Assembly (NCBI RefSeq): GCF_000189635.1
Contig: NW_002476004.1
Location: 2,936 to 66,935 of the forward strand
Direction: 5' to 3'
DNA length: 64,000 bases
From: Tetrahymena thermophila SB210
Taxonomy: Eukaryota; Ciliophora; Oligohymenophorea; Hymenostomatida; Tetrahymenidae
Positions 11 through 39,000 of the stretch are shown here, in pieces; the stretch's first letter is position 1, and each line of letters starts with the position of its first letter. A program made the position numbers and the translations under genes. The notes beneath the pieces are model-generated. The model had not been told where the DNA came from and searched no databases. It saw nothing but the letters and a program-made list of their open reading frames with translations.

Positions 11-2463
11 CAACCCCTAGATTTTCTATATGGTTGATGGCTTAAAAAATTCAAACTCTTGAAAACCTAAGTAGTGGTTTTAAAAGTGAGAAGCCTTAAT
101 TAATGATGATTGAAAATAATATATATATATATGAATTGAAAATTAAAAAATTGTTTATCAAATAAAAAGAAATTAATAAAAAATCAATGAGAGATTTTGA
201 CCTTTCAAAAATAATAAACCATTAAGTAAGCAAACATAAATGAATGTATTATTTATAATTTCTACATAAACCAAAGATGTAAACAAATTATTTTTACGCA
301 AGTAATAGTGTCAAATTTGAGAGATTTATGCAGCTTAGAAAAGCAACACTTAAAGCTTTTGTACCTTCATCTCCAATTTATACATTACTTTTATTAATTT
401 TTATAAAATACATTCAAGAAAAAAACGTAATATTTTAATTATTTTTTCAAAAGATCCCATAAATAATAATATTATTTATACTAGAGGTAAAGTGAAAGAA
501 CAGAAATATTTTGGCAGCTTACTATAGCACTGCTTAAAGCTTATGCACCTTATACACCAATTTGATTATCACTTAATAAATTTTATAAAAAAAATTATAG
601 TAGAAAGAAAGCACAAAAAAAAAAATCTTTTTTAATGATTCTTTCTTGATTTTTCAATAAAAAAAATAAAATTATTTAAAAAACTAATTTTACGTTAACT
701 AGAGTGTTAAATTTGAGAGATTTTTGCAATTTTTTAGATATGAGCATAGAGTTGATACACCTTATTCATTAATTTAATTCTAACTTTATATTTAATTTAA
801 ATATTTTTATTAAGTGAAGAAAAATTGTTAACAATGACTAAAAAAGCATGGTTGATTTATTTCATAATTTTTTCGTGAATAAAATACATAAAAAAAGGTA
901 TTCAATATTTAAAAAAAAATATTTTATTAATTTTATTTTATAATCTACTATAATTGAAATCATTAAAGCTGCTATTACTAAAGATAGAGCCCCAAAGTTG
1001 AGAGATTAACACAATTTAACAAAATAGATCCTAAAGATGAAGAACCTTCTTCTCCTATTTAATTGTAGCTTTTATGGTTTAAAGAGTGCATTTATTTATT
1101 TATTTATTTTAAAAATAAAAGAATAAATAAACAAATAGAAAAAATGGTTATTAAAATTAAAATCTATATTTATGCTTAAAGGCTAAGAAGTCAAAAAATG
1201 AGTGAAATTATTTCATATCTGATTGCTATAATAAAAATATTGAACTCACAAAACACATTGGTAAATTTATCATTGAGCCCCACAAGCTAGGGATAAATAT
1301 TACATTCATGTATATTTTACATAGAAAGCTAACGATATTCATAAATATCCCTTCCGTTTTATATTGTTTTTTGACATTGTAAGTAGCTAAATCAACTAAG
1401 AAAGCCAAAAAAAAAACAAAATTATATGATATGTAAATATGTTTTTTAGCTTCTATTAATAAGTTTTATACAAATAGGAGCTATTAAATGGAATATACCT
1501 TAGGTCTAATGTCAAAATTTAGAGATTGACACATTTTGCCAATGAATAACTTAATGATTTAATCCCTTTTGGACCTATTTCGTTATTTCTTTCAAGATTT
1601 TTAATTCAAAAATTTATTTTATATTATTAAAATGGGCAATTACAATAAAAAAGAAAGTTGAAAAATCGATTTTAAAATTTATTAATTTAATAATAATAAT
1701 TAAAATTAGGAAGGAATTCCTTATGTAATAGACAAATAAACCCAAGTTAAATAAATAAATAAATTATTACCCAAGAAAAAGTTTCAAAGTTTAAAGATTG
1801 ACACATTTTTCTAAAGCACAACCTAAAACTATTATACCCTAAGCACCCAATTTATTGTGTCTTTTGATATTTTTAATCAAAATAAGTAGAAAAAAAGAGT
1901 TCGTTTGATTTATTTATATGTAAGGTCAAGAAAAATTTTTACATTAGATCTAATTCTAAAGTTAAGAGATTAGTACATTTTTAGAGGAGAGCTAAACATA
2001 ATTTTGACATATTCTCAGTATTAATTTAACTATAACTATTTATATTGAAAATAAATATATTTATCTTTTTAAGATTAAAAAACTTAACAAAAAACTAAAA
2101 CATTGATTAGTTTTAATTGTTAAATTTAATTTAAAATAAATTTGGATTTTAATCTAATTAAATTAATATACAATATTTATTTTTTAAAATAAGAAAAGAA
2201 AAAAAAATAATATTTCTAATATTTACCAATGTCTAATTTTAGCATGTGTCTGAATTGGTTGAGAAGAATTAATAAACTATTTTTTGTTTTATTAATAAAT
2301 AATTATAATAATAAATATTATTAAAATAATTATTTACTTCTTCAATATTATTAAAGTTTTATTTCTATTATTATATCATTTTTTTAAATTTAATTTTTAA
2401 ATTAAAATTGAAAAATTAATTAAAAATAAAAGTTATTATTTTGTCTTTAGCTTTATTAATCAT
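11..2463 (-). CDS. Partial, partly decayed LRR gene built from one-repeat exons
   Basis: Seven clean exons, each encoding one RI-type leucine-rich repeat of 30-31 codons, are seen on the minus strand at 1943-2035, 1771-1860, 1499-1588, 979-1068, 694-783, 482-571 and 298-387. Six are exactly 90 nt and one is 93 nt. All begin after AG and end before GTAA/GTAT in phase 2. Typical repeat pattern: IGDEGTKALSVAFLSCINL then SNLTL. Candidate outer exons are 11-94 (84 nt, phase-compatible, weak repeat) and a 5' open frame with ATG at 2463 and donor after 2227, but the latter is phase 0 and does not join the next exon. Diverged repeat remnants without usable splice sites lie at about 180-240 and 1290-1400, so this may be a pseudogene or a gene losing repeats. 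The gene runs off the left edge. LRR proteins are usually binding scaffolds; the partner is unknown. Confidence 0.7.
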
Positions 2464-3027: not shown

Positions 3028-5222
3028 ATGAGGGACTACTTTGCCATAGAGAGATCAAATAAGATTGAGCTCATCTTGAGACTCTACATGGAGAAGTTAA
3101 TTCCTAGCTAGAAGTTCATATTTGAAATATTCTTAATTTAGCCTACAAATAAGTAAAAATATTTCAGGATAGGGCTATAGCAACGAGAAAAGGATGTTAG
3201 TAATCTTGCTAAGCTAATTGTAGCAGTCAAAAGTACTTTCTGAGATTGATGATTAAGGGTTACTGCAAGACATCAAATTTTATTTTTGTTTATTTATCAA
3301 TTTAATTAATTACCTCATTTAGGACGATGAAATTCAATATTATAGACCCTAGATTTGGAAATTTTTTTCTAAAATCATTGGTTTTTTGAGTTCCCTCAGT
3401 ATTTGGTAGTGGCAAGTTATGAAATAATAAGGTTATTGAATATTGAGTGATTGAATGCTTATTATTTTATCACTTGATAATAATATAATTGAAAACTTTA
3501 TTTGATCTATTTGATTAAATAAATATTCTTTTCTATTTATAAGCAGCTTATGGATATTTTAATTGCTTGAATGCTTTCTTATTTAATTATTCGATCTTTA
3601 TGATTTTGATTGAAAAAATTCAAATAATAATTTATTTTTTTTTCTCAAATTATTTTCAAATAATAATTCAAAAAAAAATGAAAGATAAAAATATTAGGTA
3701 TGATCGTCTGAATAACTTTTTATTTCGTAGCTATATATATTATAAAACAAAAACTGAAAAGATTTAGCTAAGCATTGGAGTAATTTATTCCTACCTAAAT
3801 ATTGCTTTGATTTTACTATATTAAATAAATGGGTATAAGAGCTAATTTTATATTCTACTGTCCTTCATCCTTCTTGATAAAATTCAATTCTTGATTCCAG
3901 TCTTTTAAGCTTTATAGTACAGCGGCTTAAAAAAATTCCTAATTGAGATAGTAACATTTATATTTATACAGGGTTATGGTGATCAGTTTTGGGATTTTTA
4001 CTAAAATGATATTAAAAAATATGTAAATTTAAACCAAAGGATGAATATCATTAGTATACTGATAGTTATTTTAAATTGCTGGACTCTATTAAATTTGTAA
4101 TCGTGGGATAGTTTCATAGCTATTTTTTCTATTGTAAACTTTTTTGGTATAATTCTGAGCGACATAATTGACTTTATTAAAGTAAAATATGGTAATTCAA
4201 TTATTATTCATTCCTATAGTTTTATAATTTTAATTTGTAGGAAAGCCTGCTTTTATTTAATTTTAGTTTAACTTATCTCTTACCATATTTCATTTATATC
4301 TATTTATGGATTATTTATTATCTGCGTGATCCTCTAATACAAATTAGATATAAGTGAAGTTGTTGACTCTACACTACTTATATTTATTTACACCAGCATT
4401 GAGTTAACAAAAACTAAGGATTACTGGATCTTAGAAGAATCATTAGCACTCTTCATAAATAACATAATGATACTATTGTTATTTATTCTTAAATTAGTAT
4501 TTTTAAATTCAACATAAATCTATGATTTGATAATTTATATTGCTTTTGGATTATATCTTACTGAAATTTTTTCAAATTTTTACTTGATTATGTTCACCTT
4601 AAAAAACTCAATCTTCATAAAATATGTATATTATGGATGTCATGGTACTATTTAAATTCCTTATTAAAGAACTGTATAAAAATTTTTTGAAGCAAGAATA
4701 AGGACCAAAGTAATTGTATAATTTTTTCCAGATGAACGACAATTAGAAAAAATTTTGATGAGATTAATAAATAAAAAAAATCAAATAATAAAAATAAAAT
4801 TTAACGATTCCATAATAATCAAAATGATTGATATGAAACTTAATTTAGTTTGGTTAATAAAAGATGTAGAATAATAATAATATTGGTATGAATAGTATGA
4901 AAAAAAAAACTATCATAGTATGAAAACTATTTACTTAATTTAGAAAAAATTATTAGATTAGGATTAATTGTCATTAAACATTTATATTGTTTCTTAATCT
5001 GTGGAATTTAGCTTTTGTGGTTTATTATTTCCGTCAAATTATTTAGATTCTCAAAATAGCAATAAATAAACCAATTTAATAGTATTTGATAGTATACTAG
5101 AAATAAACTAAAAAATATTTGCCAATTTTATTTCATTAAGGCTTATACAAATAATTGCATCAGAATATATACCCATTAATACAAATTTTCTTTTATATGA
5201 TTTATATGAAGATTTTGTATGA
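3028..5222 (+). CDS. Multi-pass membrane protein of unknown family
   Basis: Proposed exons are 3028-3219, 3323-3431 and 3544-5222 (660 codons, 659 aa), with TAA/TAG read as Gln and a TGA stop. The last exon, an open frame of 559 codons, is secure. The first junction is the weakest: donor GTAGCA at 3220 joins in frame, but a longer second exon is possible, and an upstream TGA in frame supports the ATG at 3028. The middle of the protein has several hydrophobic segments typical of membrane helices (near IGVIYSYLNIALILLYQ, FIAIFSIVNFFGIIL and ISFISIYGLFIICVIL). After the last helix comes a soluble tail of about 220 residues beginning near YYGCHGTIQIPYQRTV, with a mix of basic and amphipathic stretches. 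I do not recognise the family. It sits between two LRR loci but no functional link is visible. Confidence 0.75.
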
Positions 5223-5812: not shown

Positions 5813-8800
5813 ATGATAAAAAATAAAGCATATTTTGATAACCTTAAAAAAGTAATTGTTTTTCAAATAATTATTATTTAAAAAAAAAAAATTTTATTTA
5901 AAAAGCTTGAAAATTCTTGTTTATAAAATCACACTTGTCTAGAAATAGATTTAAGGTAAAAAAGGTTAAATTTTGAGCAGATACTTACTTAATTTTATTT
6001 CGTCATTAAATTGAAAAATAATCTTAATCTAAATAGGTTTATTTCAAATATTTAGCTTTTAAAATACTTTAAAATTTATTTTTAATTTTAAGTAAGTTGG
6101 TAATATATATATTTATCAAATATTAAATAGGAGAAAAATTGGATCTAAATCATAAAGATTTTTTAATCAAAATTCTGGATAAAATTTAAGTTCTGCTTTA
6201 TAAAAATGCATTAATCTTACAAATTTAATACTCCAAGCCAAGTAAATACTTTTTATATTTTAATTTTATTAACAGATAAATAATTTTAATTAATTAAAAA
6301 TAATAAAGCTTTATTTTCTTTTCATAGTTTTAATTAAAAGTTCTATTAAATTTTTTATACTTTTTTATAAATTAACTAACTAATATTTAAAATACAATAA
6401 GTGGAACATAAATTGATGATAAAAATGCTATATATTTAGGTTCTGCTTTAGGAGTGAACACAAATCTACAAATTTTGACTCTAAACTTAGGGTAATATAG
6501 TTTATATTTTAATTTTGGTTATAAGTATTTTTTAATTTTAAATTTAGTGTATTAATTAATATTAATTTATAAATCCTTTAATAATTGAAAATTAATTTTT
6601 AATTTGCTTGTTTTTTTTAACTTAATTCATTTTAAATATATTATTTTTTGTATTTCACTATCTTCTACTATTTTATTTAATTTTAATGCTTTCCAATAAA
6701 CTAACTAAAAATTTATATTTAAATATAAAGTTATAATGAAATTGGACCATAAGGTGTATAAGATTTAGTTCCTTCATTTTCTAACTGTGCCAATCTCTCT
6801 AACTTAGATTTAGACCTCACGTATAACTAATTTCTTAAACTTTTTTTTATATCTATAAATTAAGATATTTTTTAATCAAAAATGAAACTAACATACTTTA
6901 ATTAATTTATTTACCATAAATCCTCATAAATTCTCACCAGCATAAATTTTCACCATATTTTCTGAATATTTATAAATAATTACTTAATAGAAGTCATACA
7001 TTTTTTTTAATTTATAAATCATTTTAAAAGAAAGTGCAGTAATTATTTTCTTAATTTAAAAAATAACAGCACTTAAAATAATCAAATAAACTGTTTAAAT
7101 TATGAAAATAAAAAAAACTATTATAAAAAAGTGGAAATTTTATTTAATTTTGAAATAATTATTATAATGTAAAAATAAAATCTTATTATTTTAAAAATTT
7201 TAAAAAGAAGAAATATAATTGGAGAAAAAGGTCTATAATTTTTAGGTGCAGCTTTAACAATCTTATAAAACCTTTCATCTCTAAAACTATAACTAGAGTA
7301 AAAACATCTAAAATATCGTTTTATAAATACCCTGTTGAATTTTAACTTTCATCTTTGAAAAAAATTAACTATCTAGTTGGATTTTTTCTTTTTTTAAATG
7401 TTTAAATACTAAAAAAAATATAATACATACATCCATACACATTTCATCAAATAAATTATAAAATAGTGGGAATCAAGTTAAAGATATAGGATTGTAAAGC
7501 TTAGGCTCTGCTTTATCAAATTGTAAATATCTTACAAATTTGGCTCTTGGATTACAGTATGATAATTTATTTTTAAAATTTAAACGATTATCATAAGAAG
7601 CAAGTAAATATTTAATAGATGTGAGTGTCTGTCTGTCTTATTTTTGGTTAATTAATGCTATTAAATATTAATTACTAAAATTTTTAATTGCAAATTATAA
7701 AATAATAAAATTGCTTGCTTATCTATTTAATTCTTTTTGTTTTTTTTTGAGCTTAAATTTTTTTAATAGTAACATTTAATTAATTTTATAATATTTTTAC
7801 TATTTTTTAATAGGAAAAATGAAATAAGTTGTAAAGGTATTTCAAATTTTGGCTCTGCTTTAGTAGATTGTTAAAATCTCTCAACTATATAACTCAAATT
7901 ATAGTAAATATGATTTGTTTGTTTTGAAAGTTATTTACTTACATGGATTTAAATTAATTAAGAGAAACTCATTTAAAAATTTTAGAGAAAATAAATAAAA
8001 ATTATAAAATATTTTTTATTTTTAATGAATTAAATAATAAATAAATAAATTAATTAATATTTTTGACTAATTCTATATTAATTTTTTATTCAATTTTTTT
8101 AATTAATTTATATTAAAAATTTATTTTTATTACTTGATCTAAGAGATTTTTTCATAATTAAAAGTGGTAACTAAATTAAATCAATTGGTGCTTCAGCTTT
8201 ATGTACTGCCTTATAAAAATGTCCCAAACTTTAAAATTTTGAACTCAACCTAGACAGGTAATATATTTTATTTGTTCTCCTATTTTTTTTATTTATTATC
8301 ACTGAAATTTCTGTTAATAAATTATGATAAAAAATTAAAATATATTGATATCATTTCTTCATGTGATTATTTAAGAAAGTAATCAATTTAAAAATGAAAT
8401 TGAAAATCATAATTTTATTTTTCTAAATTATCCTTAATTCAATTATTATTAAAATAAATTTTCATTATTTAAAAGTTAAAAAGTTTTAAATAAATCAAAT
8501 GCTGTTTAGAGATTTAGCTCTTCTTTATAAAACTTCAGCAATCTATAAAAATTAGACCTTAGTCTTTGGTAGTTTTTTAATCATTATTATAATTTGTTAA
8601 TTATTTTAATTTTGAATTACTTTTGAAAAAGAAAAAAAAAAGAAAACTTAGAAAATAATTTTATTTCAAAAAAGCAATAAGGATCTTAAAAAATTAATTA
8701 GCTATTTAAAAAAATTTTAATTTTTCTAATATTTATCTATCTGTTTATGCTTATTTTTTTTAAAACATAATCTAATTCTAATTAATAATTTTAAAAGCGA

Positions 8801-10143
8801 TTGTGATATTAAACCTAAAAGTGCATCAGTTATAGGCAGTGCTTTAGCAAAGTGTTCCAATCTCTAAACACTGAAACTTTTTCTTATGTAAAAATACAAA
8901 CATTTATCTTTTAATTGTTTTTAAAAAAATATGGTTAAATATTTAAAAAAAGTTAATTCATTTATTAAAAAACTACCTAATTTTTTGATAATATGTTTGT
9001 TTTAATAATAATTTTACTTTTTGTATTTTTAATAGAAATAATAACTTATTTATTTTAATATTATTATATTTATTTTATTTCAAATTTTTTTATTAATATT
9101 ATCATTATATTTCTATCATTTCTTTTAAAATAAATAATTTTTTTAATGCAATATTTTTGAATCAAATAACAAATCTATGCCAAAATTTAAAAAGATAAAA
9201 CTTTATAGGACCAGAAGATGCATCAGAATTAGGTTTTACGTTAGTTAATTGTGCTAATCTCTAAAACCTTAAGTTAGACTTAGGGTAAAAGTTTATTCTA
9301 ATAAAATTTATTATTTTATTTTAGTTTAATTTTTAAATAAGAATAAAATTATATAGTTCTTTTTATGATTTTTTTTATAAGCTCATTCTAACTAAAAGAT
9401 TTTTTTTTGATATTTGGCAATTAATTCTTAAATTTAAAAAAAGTTTTTAAACAAAATAAACAATTTGTTACTAATTTGATTTAATTTTATTTTTAAAAAT
9501 TATTTTAAATATTAAAAGGAAAAATGAAATTGGAGACTAGGGTATTCTAAATTTAGGATAAGCTTTAATAAATTGCCCTAAATTAATTTCTTTGAACCTT
9601 GATCTATAGTAAATACTATTTATTATTTTATATAAATAAATAAAAATATGTATTATTCAAAATTTAAGAAATTACTACTATTCCATTTTTATTAAAATAT
9701 TTAATTAAATAAAATGTATTATTTTTCTATTGGCATTTTATTAGTTAATTATAATATATCAAACATTTTACTTAATATAAAAAGAAGTAACAATATTTTT
9801 GATTCAGGTGCTTTAAATTTTGGATCCGCTTTACTAAAATGTACAAACCTCTTGAGTTTGGAGCTTATTCTTTAGTAAATATGGATTTTATAATTAAATA
9901 TTAAACTAAAGATTTTATTATTATTTTACAAATTTTGCACTAACTTAAATATTTGGTTTTAATTTAATTTAATTTAATTTTATTTTAATTTTTATAAATA
10001 ACCCTAAGATTATACATATAAATAATAAAATTTTACATAATATTAAAAGTTATAATGAAATTAAAGAATCTTCACTTTTAAAAATTTAAATCAAACTACT
10101 TAAGATTAAGAAACTAGTAAATAGTTACATCTATTTTTATTGA
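5813..10143 (+). CDS. LRR protein, one leucine-rich repeat per exon
   Basis: Fourteen exons join without a frame break: 5813-5955, 6131-6241, 6402-6491, 6731-6820, 7208-7297, 7467-7556, 7814-7903, 8165-8257, 8476-8568, 8798-8887, 9195-9284, 9519-9608, 9785-9874, 10050-10143. They total 1344 nt, 447 aa. Nine internal exons are exactly 90 nt, two are 93 and one is 111. Every intron is phase 2, with GTAA/GTAT-type donors. Each internal exon encodes one repeat of the form NEIGxxGxxxLGxALxxCxNLxxLxLxL, resembling ribonuclease-inhibitor-type LRRs. Exon 1 carries the ATG and a partial repeat. The last exon ends in a Lys/Leu-rich helix and TGA at 10141. No kinase or membrane domain is present in this model. 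LRR arrays normally bind proteins; the ligand is unknown. The start is the only in-frame ATG giving the required phase. Confidence 0.85.
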
Positions 10144-10603: not shown

Positions 10604-12820
10604 TCAATCTAATTCATCCAAGTTCTAATTTTATTGTTATTATTATTACTATTCTAATTGAGCATCATTTTATTTGAATTAAGGTTTTTATTCAATTTCA
10701 GTTACTAAAATTTGCTTTTCAGTATTATTATTTAATAAATTATCAACTGGTACATTTTCTTTTCCTAAATCACTTATCATTTCTTTTTTTCTTTATTCTT
10801 TTTCTTTATTTTCTTCAACAATTTTTTTGCAAGCAATCTTGTGATCCTTCCAATGAGCTACCTGTTTTTTTTCATTATATTTTGTTTAAAAAAGAGTAAA
10901 AATATGATGATTTAATATTTACTTGACATTCTCTTGTGCAGTACCAAACAGTCTTACATTAAGAACATCTTTTAGTTGCTTCTTTTTTACAAAGTTCACA
11001 TTTAAATCCTTCCATTAATCCATCAATAATATTCTAACCATATAAATCAGCTAATCTCTACATATCTTACTTAGCTGTCTCTTTATCATTTACAAAGTAC
11101 TCATTTTTTTATTTTTCTGCTATATCATTCCAATTCTTGCCTTTGATAATATTTTCCCTAATTTCAGGAATTTACTGCACTATAAAAGGGTTAGACTTTG
11201 GAACACTCTATACATTCATAATTGAAAGCTCTTCAAGTGTTCTGAGCATATGAGATAAATTGGGAATCTAATCTAACAAAATTTCATTCATGTATTTTCT
11301 TAACTATTTTTTAAATAAAATAAAATAAATTTATTTTGAGCAAAGAAATATTTCAAAAATATGAAAATTTATTTATTTAATTACTCTTAATAAGTTAGAT
11401 TTTCTAAACTCATTTAATTCGTATTTTTTGCGACATTCAGGATCCATAAATAAATTATAAATTGTAATCCAAACATTAGCTTCAAGCTTTACAATTTTGC
11501 TGTATTCAGATTTTTCAACTATTTACCATTTGCTATTTTCATATTTTTCTCTTTCACCTTTATTAAAAAACAAAAAATAAAATGAGCTTTTAAATAATTT
11601 TCTATGAATTAGATTTCTAATAACTTTTTTATCAAGCAATAAATTAATCAAAAGATTAAATAATTAATTACCTTCTGATGTTTAACGTAGCCAAGGTTTA
11701 TCTTCAATTAATGGAACTAAAATGCAAAGGATATCATTGACTTCAAGTAAATGATGAACAACACTAACTGGCAAATGCTTTACATAGTCAGAAATAAATC
11801 TAATAATAGAAACACACATCATACAGATTTTAAATTCAATATCATCTATTTATTCCTAATACTCTTCAATTCTTGTCTTTTTTAAGACGTCTTCGACTGT
11901 CTTTTTGGTTACTTTCTTTGTTTAAGGGCTAAGAAATGTAAAGAATTTAATATATTTATTTAGTTTATTAAATATAATACAATTTTGTTAAATGCACAAG
12001 CTTTCTATAGCAGTAATCAATTAATTCTATAAGGAATTCATCAGCTGAGTCGACAGCGGTTCTATGGAACATAATGACTTCTAGCAAATTACAGACTACA
12101 GCTTCGTGATAAACAGCAATATAGCTTCTATATGTGTTTATTTTAAGCATGTGATTTTTTAGTAAAGGCAATACCTTCTATTTCCAAATTTCTGTTTCTA
12201 TTAAATCGTAAATCAAAATCTTCACTTTATCAAAAGTCACTAAAGAATCCATAATGAACTCATCACTTTTTACCATTGCATTGACATGTGCCTAAAATAT
12301 TTTTGAAATATAAAAATATCTTTAAATTTAATTTCTTAAGCATTTTGATTGATAAAATGTTAATTGAAAAAACATAATATTAAATTATTTTTAAGTTAAA
12401 GTAAAGCAAATAACTTCAAAACTCATTACTTCATATTAATTCTTTTTTCTAATCTAAAATAAATGTATAATAATAATAAAAGTTTTTGATAAATCTTTAA
12501 TGCATATATTAGTAAAATGAGTTTTTGAAATAAAATTTAGATCTTTTGCTGAAATAGTTTCTTAATAAAATTGATTAATGGCAAAATAAATACTTGCATA
12601 TTGAGTCTTTGAAGAATTTCGTCTTGCTTGAACCAGCTATTTATAAATAATTGATAATTTTTAAGTGAGTGCGATGATATGACTAACAATGTCTAAAAAA
12701 CTAAATAGCATTTTACATTTAACTACCATATTCTTCTATGTTAACGATTTATAACTTTTCTATTAAATGCTCAGCTTCGTAATGAGTTAATAAATCTCCG
12801 ATTTGTTGCTAACTATCCAT
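10604..12820 (-). CDS. ZMYND10: ZMYND10-type MYND zinc-finger protein (dynein-arm assembly)
   Basis: Seven exons (12717-12820, 12594-12636, 11981-12291, 11672-11928, 11385-11557, 10923-11303, 10604-10861) join in phase to 508 aa plus TGA. The body follows animal ZMYND10 along its length: EYGSQIW near the N-terminus, then EIWKQKVLPLL, AVYHEAVVCNLLEVIMFHRT, IDYCYRKL, PWLRQTSE and VWITIYNLF. The C-terminal MYND finger has Cys398, 401, 409, 412, 418 and 422, His426 and 430, and Cys434. ZMYND10 is known as a cytoplasmic co-chaperone factor needed to assemble axonemal outer and inner dynein arms before transport into cilia, which suits a ciliate. After the finger there is a 74-residue Lys/Gln/Asn-rich tail ending in a Gln run, longer than in animal proteins. 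Exon 1 ends in a GTAAAATG donor chosen because it restores the conserved GSxxW. Confidence 0.95.
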
Positions 12821-20780: not shown

Positions 20781-23700
20781 TCATGCATGAGGCCACCAGC
20801 CTTTGAACATGTCTCTTAGACAATAATCGTCTTTAGAGATCTAAATAAGACTGTCTATGCCTTCTTCAGTTGATTTAAAGTTAGTCATTTTAATTCTATT
20901 CTTAATTTGATTGCATAGCTGGTTAAAGTTTGTTTTTTTACATCCCTCTAGTTCGTTGGTAAAGCAATCCCAAAAGCCAATGATATCATCCAAATGTTTT
21001 GAGAAACACATACAAATGTCTATCATGGCTTTTCTAAAGAGACCATAAGACTTGAAAGAACCCAAAGCAAATTCCATATTTTTTGTTAATCTAAATGGAA
21101 TAGTTTCTGGAACATTAAGCTATTTACCTGAACCAAAGATAAGAGCGTAGTCAATATGGACTATTTCACCATTAATTTTTTTAATTAATATATTATCAGT
21201 GTGTCTATCTCCAAGTCCAATAAGATAGCCTAATATGCACCATGATGCATAAGTCCTCAAGTAGTTTTCTTTTGCTGTGTACCATTATTAAGAATCAAGG
21301 AATCGTTAGTTGAAGAAGTCTTAAAATACAGAAGGAAGGCTCTTTTGTTTATTCCATTCTTCTCTGCTTAATTTATCTGAGTCTAGTTTTAATTAATAGA
21401 ACTAGCTCTTTTGCTTCTTCTCTTACCACAGCTAATCTAAAATCGTCTTTAAAGTTAGTGTATCATCAACCCATTCTACAATGCAGCTGTGAAGTATTTT
21501 TTAAGTAATATTAATAATTTATAGTAATGAATTTTTCAATTTAATAATAAAATTATAAAAATATGAATTGAAATGTATTAATTAATTAATTAATTATTAC
21601 CTTTAGCTGTTTAATCTTAGAATTGTATAAGAAGGCATTTCATAAAATCCAAGTTATTCTTTGTAAAGAATAAGGTTCAAGAATGAAATCAACTCACTTG
21701 TTCTCTGCTCGTAGACATTTTCACTTTGAGTTTGAGATTTGATTAAAAATTTCTTTTTAGTTCCATCAGAACATTAAACAGTTAAGAGTTTTGGTTTTTG
21801 TTTGGAGCTCATAATTCTGACAACATCATCAAACTTTTCCATGTATACTGGATTATTATGGTAAGGATTATAATTAGGTTCTACATTTCTGCTTTATGGC
21901 ATCTTTGGGAAAATGTATTCCTTTTTGGGAAGAATCAGTCTCAGGTTAGCCAGTGATTTTACCAAGTAGTTTTCGATTTTCATAGTAGTACTAGATCCCT
22001 ATATTTAAAGTAGATTAGTTGGTTAGGCATTAAAAATAATATTTAATTTCAAGATATAAAAAAAGAATAATTTATCAGAGAGAAATTGAATATTTACGTC
22101 TGGCGCTTTAATTGCAAAATTTAATAAATTGTAGTAGAAGTTAGAAACTCTATTTATTTGTTCATAACTTGATGGATTTATTTCATTAATCTTTTTAAGA
22201 ATAGCAGAAGCTCTTTATTCAGTATATTCATCCTTTTGCACAGAGCTTTAATTGCTAATCATTTAGTACATGTATTTAAGAGGTAATAACCACCAGACAC
22301 TTTAGTCAGGATATTCAGCACCTAATTAATTATTTTGATTTTAAATATAAAAGTTAGTTAAAGAATATTAAAAGCTATAATTTAATGTCTATTTATGGTA
22401 ATATTTAAATATATTCTTTTAGTTATTTGTTTATTTGAAAGCATTCATTACCTACTTTTGCCAGGAGATCAATAAATAAATTAGCACACTACTAATAAGG
22501 TATTGTGATATGCGAGGTTAGCTGATTGACAACACTGGTTAATTTGAAGGTTTCTATTTTATTGCAAGTTTCGGATATTTATAAGAAATTCTTAATTTTA
22601 TTATTTAAAAATATTTTAATTATTTTTATAAAGATAAAATGAAAAATGAATTTTACTTTGTCAAATTTTTGCTTGACAAGCTGAGCTTTTTTAGTTTACA
22701 AATTTGCCACATCCTAAAAAAGTTCTACTAGCAAGCGTATTGCTCTTGGAAGAGACTGATGAATGTATTAATGTCCATTTGATGCTGCTAAGAGATAGAG
22801 CTAAATAGCTTTTATTTTTTGGTCAATCTCTTTGTCATTAGGGTTGTCTGATATTAATTCATTTTCATCTATAAACTTTGCATACTTGAAACACAATTTC
22901 TCACTTTCAGAATTTTACTGAACTAACTTAATAAACTCGCTGTGGATTAAAGACTCAGAGAAAATCTAGAAATTATGTTGATATTTATAAGTAACTTTCT
23001 TTATTTTAAAATCAATTCCATCAAATTTTTATAGCTTATGAATAGCTTTCTTTATATTTCCCAGTTTCTTTTCAATCTTTGCCTAAAGAGTGTATATTTC
23101 CTAAGAAGAAAATGAATCTTTTTTTTCCTTCCAAACCTATTTAGCTCTCTTCAAAATAGTTAAAGCATCAGAGTATTTTTCTTTTTAAGGTTTTAAATAT
23201 TTTAGTTAAATTAATTTTATTTCATGTTTAAAACTTTATTATCATATCTTAATTATTTTTCTATAATATTTAATATCTATAACTGACAAATAATTAATTT
23301 GCTAAAATTAAAATTTCATAAAAAATTTAAATTATTTGTAAATTAATTTTTTATTGACAATAAGTATTTTTTGTTTTAAATTTTACTTTATTTTTAATTT
23401 TATTTATTTTTTATTGAATTAAAAATATTTGCTTTAAATTAAAAAATTATAATAATTTTTTGTAAATATTTATTTTTACCTTTTTTATAGTAGTATTTGG
23501 AGAGTCTAAACAAAGAATTTATGTAAATTTTTCTGTATTCTTTGCATTAGTTGTATAGGACGCATATTAAATAATTGTAAACTATTCTTAAATAGCACTC
23601 TTAATCATAACTGAGTAACAACTTAGAAGTCTATTACAGAGCTTGAATTAAGTTAAAAACAGAATACTAGTTTATTATTTAGTTGTATGTAATACGACTA

Positions 23701-33068: not shown

Positions 33069-36000
33069 CTATTGAAAATTAATTAGAATTGTATTTACAA
33101 ATATTAATATAGCTTGAAATTAAAAAATTTATAAAAAAACTATTTAAAAATTTAATTCAACAATAAAAATCTTCAAAAAATTAAAATTTTCAATTTCAAT
33201 TTCAAAATTTAAAGTTCAATTATTTTGAAAATATCAATAAATAATAATTTATGAATTGAAAATATTTAAAAAATAAGAATATTTATTATATTTTAAATTT
33301 TTAAATCATTATATTTTTTTAAATTTAATAAGTTCTCCATAAAATAAAAATAAATGGTTGGATACCTTCATCGCAATAGTAATTTTAATCAGATACTTAA
33401 ATTCTTTTTTGATAAATTTTTTATTAAGCTTCACTAATGTTTTAATCGCCAATACAGTTAGAGCATTGATAGATATCAGATGAGTTTTTATTAACTCTCC
33501 AATATTAAGAACTCAAATAAATATTATTTCCTTAGCAAGTTATATCATTATTTGGACATTAAAAACAAGAATCAGTAATAATAAAGCTATATGAATCTTT
33601 ACATTAAAAGCAATAATCATAGTATTCGTATATCTTTTTTACTATTTTGCCAACTTAACATTATTTTGCTAATTAAATATTTAATATCAATTTATACTCT
33701 TAATTGTATCCTATTACATTTTAACCTGAGTCATAAATAGGTATTTTAATTTAGTTACTAGTTATTTTTACTTGAAGCTAATCACCCATGAGTCCATATA
33801 TTAATAGTTAATCAGTCACATTAAATATTCCTTACTCATTTGTCAGGCTTTTTGTATTTATGTAACCATATCCAGATTAAATGCTTACTTATAAATTAAT
33901 ATTGCTTTCGCTCAACTTTTCAAAGTTTTTGCTTGATAAAATCAAAATTATATCATCCTTATTAAAATAAATAATTTAATTAATTACAAAATAATGTTAT
34001 TTTCAAGATTAATTAATTAATTTATTTATTTTTAATTTTATTATTAAACAATTAAATATATGTTTAAGGGTTAAAAAATAAATTTATTAAAATAAAAATT
34101 GTAAAGTTTTATGATCAAGATGTTTTATATTAAAAATTGTTTTATAAATAATAAAATAAATACCCTCATTTTGAATTTAAAAATATTAATTAAAAAAATT
34201 TAATTACATTCAATTAGCCACCTTCATGATTAAGCACATCTATTTAAGGAATGTTATTGTAAGCATTGAATTATTTATTGTTAATATAGATGTCAAAATG
34301 AATTGGAGATTACTTAATTATTTAACCATATTTTTATGCAGTGTTATTTTTATATGTATTGTTGAAATATTAGTTTACACTTTAACCTGTGTTTGAAGAT
34401 ATAGCTCCTCCATATTGTGCATAATTAGAATCAAAATAGCAATCATTAAGTTATACAATATTTGAAAGAATTTAGGAATACTCATTGTTAAGATAGATAG
34501 CACCACCTTCTGATAATGCATTATTATTATCGAAAATGCATTTTTAAATTAGAATTGAAGAATAATTAAGATAAATACCACCTCCATTTTCATATGCCTT
34601 GTTATTCTAAAATTATGAATTTTAAATATTTATCTAATTTTTTTGGTTTTATTGTTATAGAATCCTTGAAGATCCTTAACTTGGTATCTAAATTTGTTAA
34701 ACATACAATCCTGAGCCATGAAGTGCAGTATTTGAGTCAAAGCGGGATTAGTAGATATTTAGAAATATTGCTGCTATTTAAATTATTCCTTGACTACATT
34801 ACTTGCAGAAATTGTTATTTGAATTTAAGAGTTGAATTTAACAATAAGTGCTATTATATAATGCCACATTTTAAATAGGTAAATTAGGATTAGTTAATTA
34901 CTAAAATGCATAAATATTAGCATTATCCTATAACGTGCAATTATAGATATACAATTAATAGATTTGATCAAAATTTATTAGATTATCTAGGAAAAGACTT
35001 GATTCGTATATGTTGTTAAAGTCAAGTAGAGTTTATGTATTGGTTACTAGTAAAATCTTTTAAAAAATAAGAGTATTTATAAATTATTGATCTAAAAATT
35101 TGCTTTTATTTGAAAATATTTTAAATTTTGAATTTTAAATGAAAACATAATTAGCTCTGTTAATGTAAAAAATTGAGCTAATTATATTTTCTTAAGCAAC
35201 AACTTAGATATTTAAAAATTGAATATTATCAGTAATCTTTTCTATTTAGTTAGTTGAAATTATTTGCTTTAGTATGACTATTGTTTTGGCTGATATTTAA
35301 TTGTTTAAATAAAGGTTGCTGCCTAAAATAGAGAAATTATTTTCAAAAATACTGCTTTCAATTTGAACAAAAGATCTAGGTAAATTCGAAGTTTGAAGTG
35401 ATATAGCTCCTCCTCCATATTATGCAAAATTAGATAAAAATAAACAATTTTTAATGTTAATGTCTTGGCTATTTGAAAACTATTAATCAATCAAAATAGC
35501 ACCTCCTTTAGATTCCAAGCTGTCTTCGCTATAGGCATAATTACCAATAAAGGTAGAATTTTAAAATGACATGCTCCCCTCACTTTTAGGACTCCAAAAT
35601 ATGGCTCCACCAAATAAAGCTAAACCATTTGCAAACAAAGAATTAAATATAGTAAACGCTACACTTGTTATCATTATAAATCCGCCATTTTTTATTGATT
35701 TTAATTCTTTGTAGTTATTTTAACCAAGACTAACTGAGTTTGTAAAATTTGAATTTATAATATTTATTGTTTTTACTTATCCATTGATCCAATTAAATGG
35801 GTTATCAATGTTACAGTCAGTAAATTTGGAATTGTCTATTATTACTGATATAGTTGGTGATTTAAAATAAAATCCTAAAGAAATAGAGCCAAGGGTGATC
35901 TAATTTAAAATTTAAAAATTATTTAAATATTTTTAAATAATTAAAATAAAAAAAATGTAACAATGCTGTGATTTCTCAATTTCAAAGTTTAAATGTTAAA

Positions 36001-39000
36001 AATGAAAATTTTTTGATTTTTTCTATTATTTTTTTAAATTGATTGCAATTTTATGGCTCCTCATTAATTTGTGCAAAGAGGGATTACAATAGTTTATCAA
36101 AAATATTTAAAGAGAATTCGAAAGAAAATAAAATTTACCCCTTTAACTAGCAATTAAGATTAGAATTATTAAAATACTATATTTTTTATTTAAATTGTAG
36201 TGTCCTAAACTGTATTTATTGAGATCAGCCCACAATCCTCTAAATTATCTTAAATGACAATAGTAATATTGTTGCATACAATATTATTTATAATTATTCC
36301 AGCTGGAGTAGCAAGTTAATTATTTGAATAACTTTTATTATTTGATTATAATTAATCATTTTTTATTTAGATGAAATTATTAGATATTCTGATATCATTT
36401 AGATAAAAGCTATCTATACTTATGAAATTTAATGATTAACTTATCTAGCAGAATATTGGAGATATTAAATTTATTAAAGTCTGAGATTATGATACTTGTT
36501 AAATATATACACTAGAAACTGAGTCTGTTTTTAAAAATAAGAATTAGTTGTTATTTATCAATGTAATATTTTAGATTTAAACTTTTTTTAAATTAGTAAA
36601 AGATATCAGCTATTAGAGATTTTTAGATTAAAAATTATTTCTTTACAAATTAAATCTTAATATTTATGAGCTTGTGTTTTAGTCTGTAGAATAGTCCAAA
36701 AATAAGCTATTGATACTTTCTGAAAATATTTAATTTTCTAGGAAAAATACATCTTAAAATACGGAATTTTGATTTACATTTTTTAAGTTCGATAAGCTAT
36801 CTTATTATTATAAAAAACCATAGTTTTAAATAATTGTATTTGAGATATAAAAATTAGAAACACTAAAAGTGTTTGAAGCTATTAGAGGTATATTTTGGAT
36901 AGAATTTTATTTCAAGTTGGATAAACTAAATTTAATATCTGTAATATTTAGATCATTTAGAAATTGAGAATTTAAAATGCAGGATCCATTAGAAAATTCA
37001 CATTAAGAGAAGCTAACGTTATTAAACAATACTTTAATTTATTGGTTTTAAATATAGATTGGTTAGATATCAAACATTTCTGTACCATCATTAAATTAGC
37101 ATTAATAAAAAGAGATATTAGTTAAATTAATGTATGCTTCAAATATATTCAATGATAATAGTGATGCTTTACTCATTACTACCTATTATTTAAAAAATAT
37201 TTTAAATTAAATATAAATTTTCTTAAAATTATAAAAAATATTTTCAATTGTTTTTAGAAATGTTAGGTTTAAGATAAAAAATATTACATTTATAAATTAT
37301 GCTTGATCGATAGTTAAATATATTTAGGCATCTTTAAGTTTTGTTAAAATATTAATTAGTTTATTACTATTATAAACTTAAACGTTTTAAAATTAAACAT
37401 ATTAAAGAGTTACAGTTGAATTTTACAACGTTGATAAATTAAATGCTAAGTATTACTGTTAGTTATTTTAGCTTTAGTTAAATCTACAATTAAGCATTTT
37501 AAATGTTATTAATTAACTATCCTAGACAATAATTCCATAAAAGCTACTATTAAATTGTTATTAAAAATTAATATTTTATACAAAGACTTGGTTAAAGCCA
37601 ACAACAGTAAAGGGCTATAATTATAAAAAATTTAAATAAATATTAGGGTTTGAAGTTTAAGATGTAACATTTAAACTTATTAGTTATAAAGATCTAATCT
37701 AATTCTATAATTTAGTAGAGAAAACCTAATTTCTTTATTCCACACATTAATCCCCATAAAAAATTAGCAATACTTCTAACTCTTTAACTTGTAATTCATT
37801 GTAATATACAACAGCCTAATCATATTACAATTCACTTAATATCAGCTAATCAATATCCACTTCATTAATTCTGTTATAATTTAAAGGATTTTGTTAAGAT
37901 CCATCACCTATTTAATTATTTTAATCTAAGCATTTAGTATAAATTGTTCTCTATTTTTTGTAATAACAGCCTTATTCGGTGTTTTGACACAGATAACATT
38001 TTCTTCTCTCTTTGTCATTGGTTATGCTGTAGTTTTAAAGAATCAAATTCAAGTTTTGCTTGCACGACAAACACTATGAATCATATAAAAACAGTGGATT
38101 TTAACTTATATCGCTTTCATTAGTGCAAGTTTAACACCTTATATAAAATAAAGCATACTTTTTAGATAAAAATAATAAAGTAAGTAATTACATTAATGGA
38201 CATATTTAGCAATCATCTCCTTTTGAAGTAAGGCTTACCATGCTTTATATATTAGGGATAGCATTTTAATTATAATAAAGTTTTCCTATGAAATACTATA
38301 TGGGACTAATTAACGAGAAAAGCATTTATTAATTACATTTAATACATTAAGGTTAGTTGTTAATTAGTATACATTAAGAACAATATTTACCGCATGATAT
38401 AGCAAGACAAATTTTTTATTATTAATCGAAATAATAACCTTATTGGCATTCAGTACAGAATAATTGATAATTATTTGAAGTACTATTATAATTTAATCTT
38501 TGCTAAATGCTTAATTACTGTCTTTTATAAATCAACTAAGATGTAAAATTAAATGTCCTAGTGCCTATTTCAAAAAAAAAATTTAATATTTAAACAACAA
38601 ATTATAAATACCTTCATAGCATTTAGAACATCCTTAGGGACACTTAATACATCCATTTATTGAAGGGATACTGTATTAATCTAAGCAGCTGGTGCATTAG
38701 GATATAAGGTTGTTTGAATTGGGATCTTAGTAATAAAAGCATTAAGCGCATCCATAATTCTAAAATTATAATTAATCTTCATAAAATATTTTATTTAAAT
38801 AATATAAATACATTGTTTTAACAAACATCATCTTGGCATTTAGGAGGATTATAACTTAAATTTAGAATGCTTCCATTACTGCAAAACAAACATTATGTAT
38901 TAGATTGATTCTGCAAACAATTAGAACATTTTGTTTATGAAACAGTAGTTCGACATCCATAGTTACATTCTTGTTAGTTTTTTTAAATAATGTACCCATC

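Follow-up and report, generated by a model that had tools for sequence, protein, structure and literature searches.

The gene at 5813-10143 on the + strand of our window, the whole 64-kb stretch of Tetrahymena thermophila DNA that was analysed, is almost certainly a member of the Tetrahymena 90-bp-exon family, encoding a stand-alone RI-like leucine-rich repeat (LRR) protein of 447 residues. Its structure of one LRR per 90-base exon is already known, and the gene is one ordinary case among the many of this large family; since the architecture is described by Xiong et al. in 2019 (PMC6564038), what we observe here is an instance of published work. That account reports LRR-gene exons of exactly 90 bp, in the tens of thousands, from 10 Tetrahymena species, with more than 98% of the introns that precede them in phase 2, and it assigns at least one 90-bp exon to 1,500 of the 1,874 LRR genes of T. 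thermophila. In its terms an array is a run of at least three consecutive 90-bp exons, and RNA-seq support is given for one example gene of the family. The genes are argued there to have evolved once, in the Tetrahymena lineage, and the model put forward is germline exon shuffling via unequal crossing over, perhaps together with retrotransposition.

Exon Architecture

Reconstruction of the joined frame from the sequence gives a gene of 14 exons and 13 introns (Table 1). All 13 introns begin with GT and end with AG, all 13 lie in phase 2, and all 12 internal exons have a length that is a multiple of three. Nine of these internal exons are of 90 nt, exons 8 and 9 are of 93 nt and exon 2 is of 111 nt. 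An earlier note on this DNA had claimed just these lengths, with every intron in phase 2; the exon table confirms it, and an independent position matrix recovers the nine 90-nt exons. Exons of exactly 90 nt follow one another in a run of five (exons 3-7) and a run of four (exons 10-13), flanked throughout by the phase-2 introns. The introns span 160-387 nt with a median of 229 nt, intron 4 being the longest. Read with ciliate code 6, the spliced sequence has an open frame in which 26 TAA and 2 TAG codons encode glutamine; each of its five remaining frames contains between 4 and 13 TGA codons. A 58-residue telomerase peptide of this genome is identical at all 57 aligned residues to PDB chain 6d6v_A, T. 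thermophila telomerase, and the genome size, the AT-richness and the requirement for code 6 are consistent with this. The genome is very probably that of T. thermophila, and the gene is, like the rest of its family, a Tetrahymena one, although a peptide of this length could also match a very close relative.

The note had further read each internal exon as one LRR, a modular reading that agrees with the family account (PMC6564038) but requires a correction. The 3' border of each exon lies immediately beyond the LxLxL strand, and one codon is split over every junction; as this junction codon is common to the neighboring exons, an exon corresponds to one permuted repeat. The matrix was applied to the internal exons, and the borders of exons 1 and 14 are less certain, being based on the frame, the splice sites and the residues of partial repeats. 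Three in-frame TGA codons lie within the 300 bases before the ATG of exon 1.

Table 1. Exons of the LRR gene at 5813-10143 and other repeat features of the window
Feature	Position	Strand	Length	Description	Matrix score
Exon 1	5813..5955	+	143 nt	Start codon and N-terminal region, plus the C-terminal half of a repeat (..HTCLEIDL); exit phase 2	
Exon 2	6131..6241	+	111 nt	Divergent LRR	2.2 (ungapped)
Exon 3	6402..6491	+	90 nt	LRR	34.7 bits
Exon 4	6731..6820	+	90 nt	LRR	55.9 bits
Intron 4	6821..7207	+	387 nt	Holds one copy of the dispersed AT-rich repeat	
AT-rich dispersed repeat	~6912-6977			In intron 4; conserved core ~60 nt in a 10-copy alignment	
Exon 5	7208..7297	+	90 nt	LRR	33.4 bits
Exon 6	7467..7556	+	90 nt	LRR	44.9 bits
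Exon 7	7814..7903	+	90 nt	LRR	29.5 bits
Exon 8	8165..8257	+	93 nt	LRR with one extra 3' residue	48.8 bits (hand-placed)
Exon 9	8476..8568	+	93 nt	Divergent LRR ending in TG	-7.7
Exon 10	8798..8887	+	90 nt	LRR	40.3 bits
Exon 11	9195..9284	+	90 nt	LRR	61.2 bits
Exon 12	9519..9608	+	90 nt	LRR	48.9 bits
Exon 13	9785..9874	+	90 nt	LRR	46.4 bits
Exon 14	10050..10143	+	94 nt	Repeat start, C-terminal tail, TGA stop	
Second LRR gene, six exons (matrix scan)	298-387, 482-571, 694-783, 979-1068, 1499-1588, 1771-1860	-	90 nt each		
Second LRR gene, weaker candidate exon	1943-2035	-	93 nt		-11.9

It could be objected that this regularity is a product of chance, or of splice sites picked by hand in AT-rich DNA, as AG and GT are frequent, some exons admit several possible borders, and the first placing of exons 4, 9 and 14 (6732-6824, 8484-8573 and 10051-10143) was wrong and has been superseded by the exons listed in Table 1. 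The independent matrix speaks against this objection. A repeat-core pattern searched against the same genome (101.0 Mb in 445 contigs) gave 157 exact matches, versus 0 for a reversed control pattern, and 28 of the 30 other loci cut around such matches together yielded 107 distinct 29-residue peptides of 90-nt phase-2 exons, preselected by a motif filter, on which the matrix was trained. When it was scanned over every open 90-nt phase-2 interval between AG and GT in the window, nine matches on the + strand exceeded the threshold of 15 bits, and these were exactly the nine 90-nt exons, at 29.5 to 61.2 bits; all nine thus code for LRRs of the shared consensus, in line with the Pfam assignment to LRR_6. 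When the gene was shuffled 500 times with its dinucleotides preserved, the same scan returned 1,537 open candidates, none of them above 15 bits and the best at -41.9. The scan and the shuffles together rule out chance splice sites, and we attach practically no probability to chance or artefact as the source of the structure. For 13 introns to fall in one named phase, plain arithmetic gives 3^-13, or ~6e-7, if the phases are equally likely. The ungapped matrix is weak on the 111-nt exon 2 and the 93-nt exon 9, and a listing by rigid motif recovered 9 of the 12 internal exons, missing exons 3, 4 and 9.

Encoded Protein

Compared with Pfam at E up to 0.001, the 447-residue protein matches LRR_6 as its one family, with a whole-protein E of 4.6e-8 and a score of 33 bits where the cut-off is 23.4, no individual stretch passing alone. 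Comparison with the sequences of solved structures returned 14 distinct sequences, which include LRR proteins, radial spoke protein 15, DRC5 and RanGAP1, and the best LRR relative in the PDB gave 3.7e-11. The eleven 90/93-nt exons share the repeat consensus xxNxIxxxGxxxLGSALxxCxNLxxLxLxL. Neither NACHT nor NB-ARC was found upstream of the LRRs at this Pfam limit, and an NLR-type receptor is rejected, as Pfam shows LRR_6 only. The product would rather stand alone as an RI-like LRR protein; it is probably a protein-binding horseshoe of the cytosol that carries no effector domain.

A degenerate copy, in which the LRR array is decaying and expression has been lost, might be suspected from exons 2 and 9, which are divergent and depart from the 90-nt norm, and from the G+C content of the two terminal exons, only 15% in exon 1 and 17% in exon 14. 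We consider this improbable, given a frame that is open over 447 codons, splice-site pairs that are intact in all 13 introns, and variation at conserved residues that is mostly confined to the third codon position. In the conserved columns, the 469 comparisons between pairs of the same residue differ at codon position 3 in 45.6% of cases and at position 1 in 15.8%, with no difference at position 2, which is as expected if selection holds the protein sequence. This pattern is a sign, as distinct from a dN/dS test, that residues of the protein may be under constraint.

Origin and Age of the Array

The array would have grown in the germline nucleus as a symmetric exon/intron unit was duplicated and shuffled. 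Germline shuffling, the published origin, is most likely the origin of this array also, and unequal exchange, which the earlier note had offered as a route of change, accords with the 2019 family account (PMC6564038). No sign of recent exon exchange or duplication was seen within 5813-10143, where the eleven 90/93-nt exons (the 93-nt ones trimmed by one codon) have a mean DNA identity of 54%, with a range of 44-67%, and where 12 direct-repeat families, 26-58 nt in length, have copies 64-88% identical to their reference. Mean exon identity is higher, 58-93%, in 29 of the 30 comparison loci, namely those with at least three exons above 30 bits, some of which overlap each other, and which lean toward the young and alike because a conserved core and a minimum score governed their selection.

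According to the family account, introns are mostly near 56 bp in group II genes and near 257 bp in group III genes (PMC6564038). Group III is further marked by exon/intron units that resemble one another at the nucleotide level and are masked by repeat consensus sequences, which do not mask the 90-bp exons of group II. Set against group II, the older of the two, the low exon identity of our gene fits and its introns of 160-387 nt do not; set against the young group III, its introns have a median of 229 nt and its exon identity is 0.54, compared with 0.58-0.93 in the comparison loci. From its sequence, then, the gene looks old by its exons and young by its introns.

Exon Skipping

From symmetric exons in a single phase, the earlier note had concluded that every exon is free to be lost or skipped with the frame intact. 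When single skips were computed for the 12 internal exons, this held for 11, the frame remaining open with no added stop, and failed for exon 10, the loss of which creates a TGA at the junction of exons 9 and 11; the conclusion is therefore slightly too broad. Exon 9 ends in TG, so that joining it to exon 11 or to exon 13 makes TGA, and these two pairs (9-11 and 9-13) are the only ones among 91 ordered exon pairs to give a junction stop.

If whole LRR exons were skipped in combination, many isoforms, and with them several binding surfaces, could come from one gene. Such a use would draw on the frame being kept in 11 of 12 single skips, on a report that T. thermophila is the sole non-animal with an animal-like bias toward frame-preserving skipped exons (p = 2.18e-5; PMC6142364), and on the alternative splicing of those human NLR genes whose LRR exons are modular (PMC6642158). 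Against it, besides the TGA produced by skipping exon 10, are the results of a 2012 RNA-seq study of T. thermophila (PMC3274533), which counts 139 cassette exons among 1,474 events of alternative splicing and suggests intron definition, and the main text of PMC6564038, where the terms "alternative splicing" and "exon skipping" have 0 occurrences. The open-licence literature searched yielded no report of skipping of these LRR exons. Combinatorial splicing of the exons of 5813-10143 is unsupported, and we regard it as very unlikely indeed; normally the exons would all be spliced in. An array that grew by duplicating symmetric units would carry its one-repeat, one-phase structure as a relic of that growth and not as a device for making isoforms.

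Extended to the whole family, the symmetric 90-nt LRR exons might themselves be the source of the frame-preserving skipping bias of T. thermophila, giving it animal-like skipping and perhaps varied binding surfaces. We infer this by joining separate papers, and it is not a result of the present analysis; the words leucine and LRR have 0 occurrences in the main text of PMC6142364, and we regard the reading as unlikely. Many symmetric 90-nt exons could produce a frame-preserving bias with or without any function. Were it true, an LRR family would give a single-celled organism exon skipping of the animal kind, perhaps for varying binding surfaces.

Intron 4 and Neighboring Features

The 33-nt core of the AT-rich repeat in intron 4 is present in 23 copies at no more than 3 mismatches. 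The repeat accounts for 48 rows among the matches listed, for which 40 of 66 candidates were scored, and in 8 of these 48 a short match in reverse orientation sits next to a forward copy, an arrangement that suggests a putative fold-back element. Around other copies of the repeat, 90-nt LRR exons occur in 4 of 9 loci, a count that stands without an adequate control (the control pattern gave 3 loci and was unused). A retrotransposon tail of 54 bp is reported in 169 somatic copies (PMC6564038); with a core of ~60 nt and 23 copies of its 33-nt core, the intron-4 repeat was not identified with it. The 24-nt core of the repeat was not found in the text of the open-licence papers searched. The part of the gene from exon 2 to intron 4 has DNA matches at G000:C9:829553-830396.

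A second LRR gene with 90-nt phase-2 exons lies near the left end of the 141,270-base contig, at 298-2035 on the - strand (Table 1). Between the two LRR genes, 3447-5219 (+) is a 591-aa stop-to-stop frame under code 6 for which Pfam gave nothing at E up to 0.001, the limit of a scan that covered 10 of the 99 open frames of the window. Elsewhere in the window, an open frame at 20784-23150 (-) matches PI3/PI4 kinase (E 3.3e-36) and one at 10875-12212 (-) matches the MYND finger (E 1.2e-7). A 729-aa open frame at 34169-36355 (-) matches the Chlamydia PMP repeat PF02415 with a whole-protein E of 7e-12, no individual stretch passing, and this match is probably due to short convergent repeats.

Relation to Known Systems

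RI-like LRRs encoded on repeat-aligned, frame-preserving exons are also found in the LRR domains of vertebrate NLR proteins and ribonuclease inhibitor (PMC6642158), although the LRR exons of NLRP3 are of 171 bp with two LRRs each (PMC6642158), as opposed to 90 nt and one LRR in 5813-10143, in whose product Pfam, at E up to 0.001, recognizes LRR_6 but neither NACHT nor any further family. Within the same genome, the two adjoining LRR stretches at G000:C112:25424-28213, continuous frames of 314 and 313 aa that are group I-like, were the top-scoring rows of a protein search. The one at G000:C112:27311-28213 has the same type of repeat, with 33% identity over query residues 32-332, but is intronless, the matched stretch being a single uninterrupted open frame of 314 aa. 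The closest likeness is to the Tetrahymena 90-bp-exon family itself, with which the gene shares arrays of exactly 90-nt exons, phase-2 introns throughout and an LRR product, and from which it differs in having two exons of 93 nt and one of 111 nt and in combining diverged, old-looking exons with long introns.
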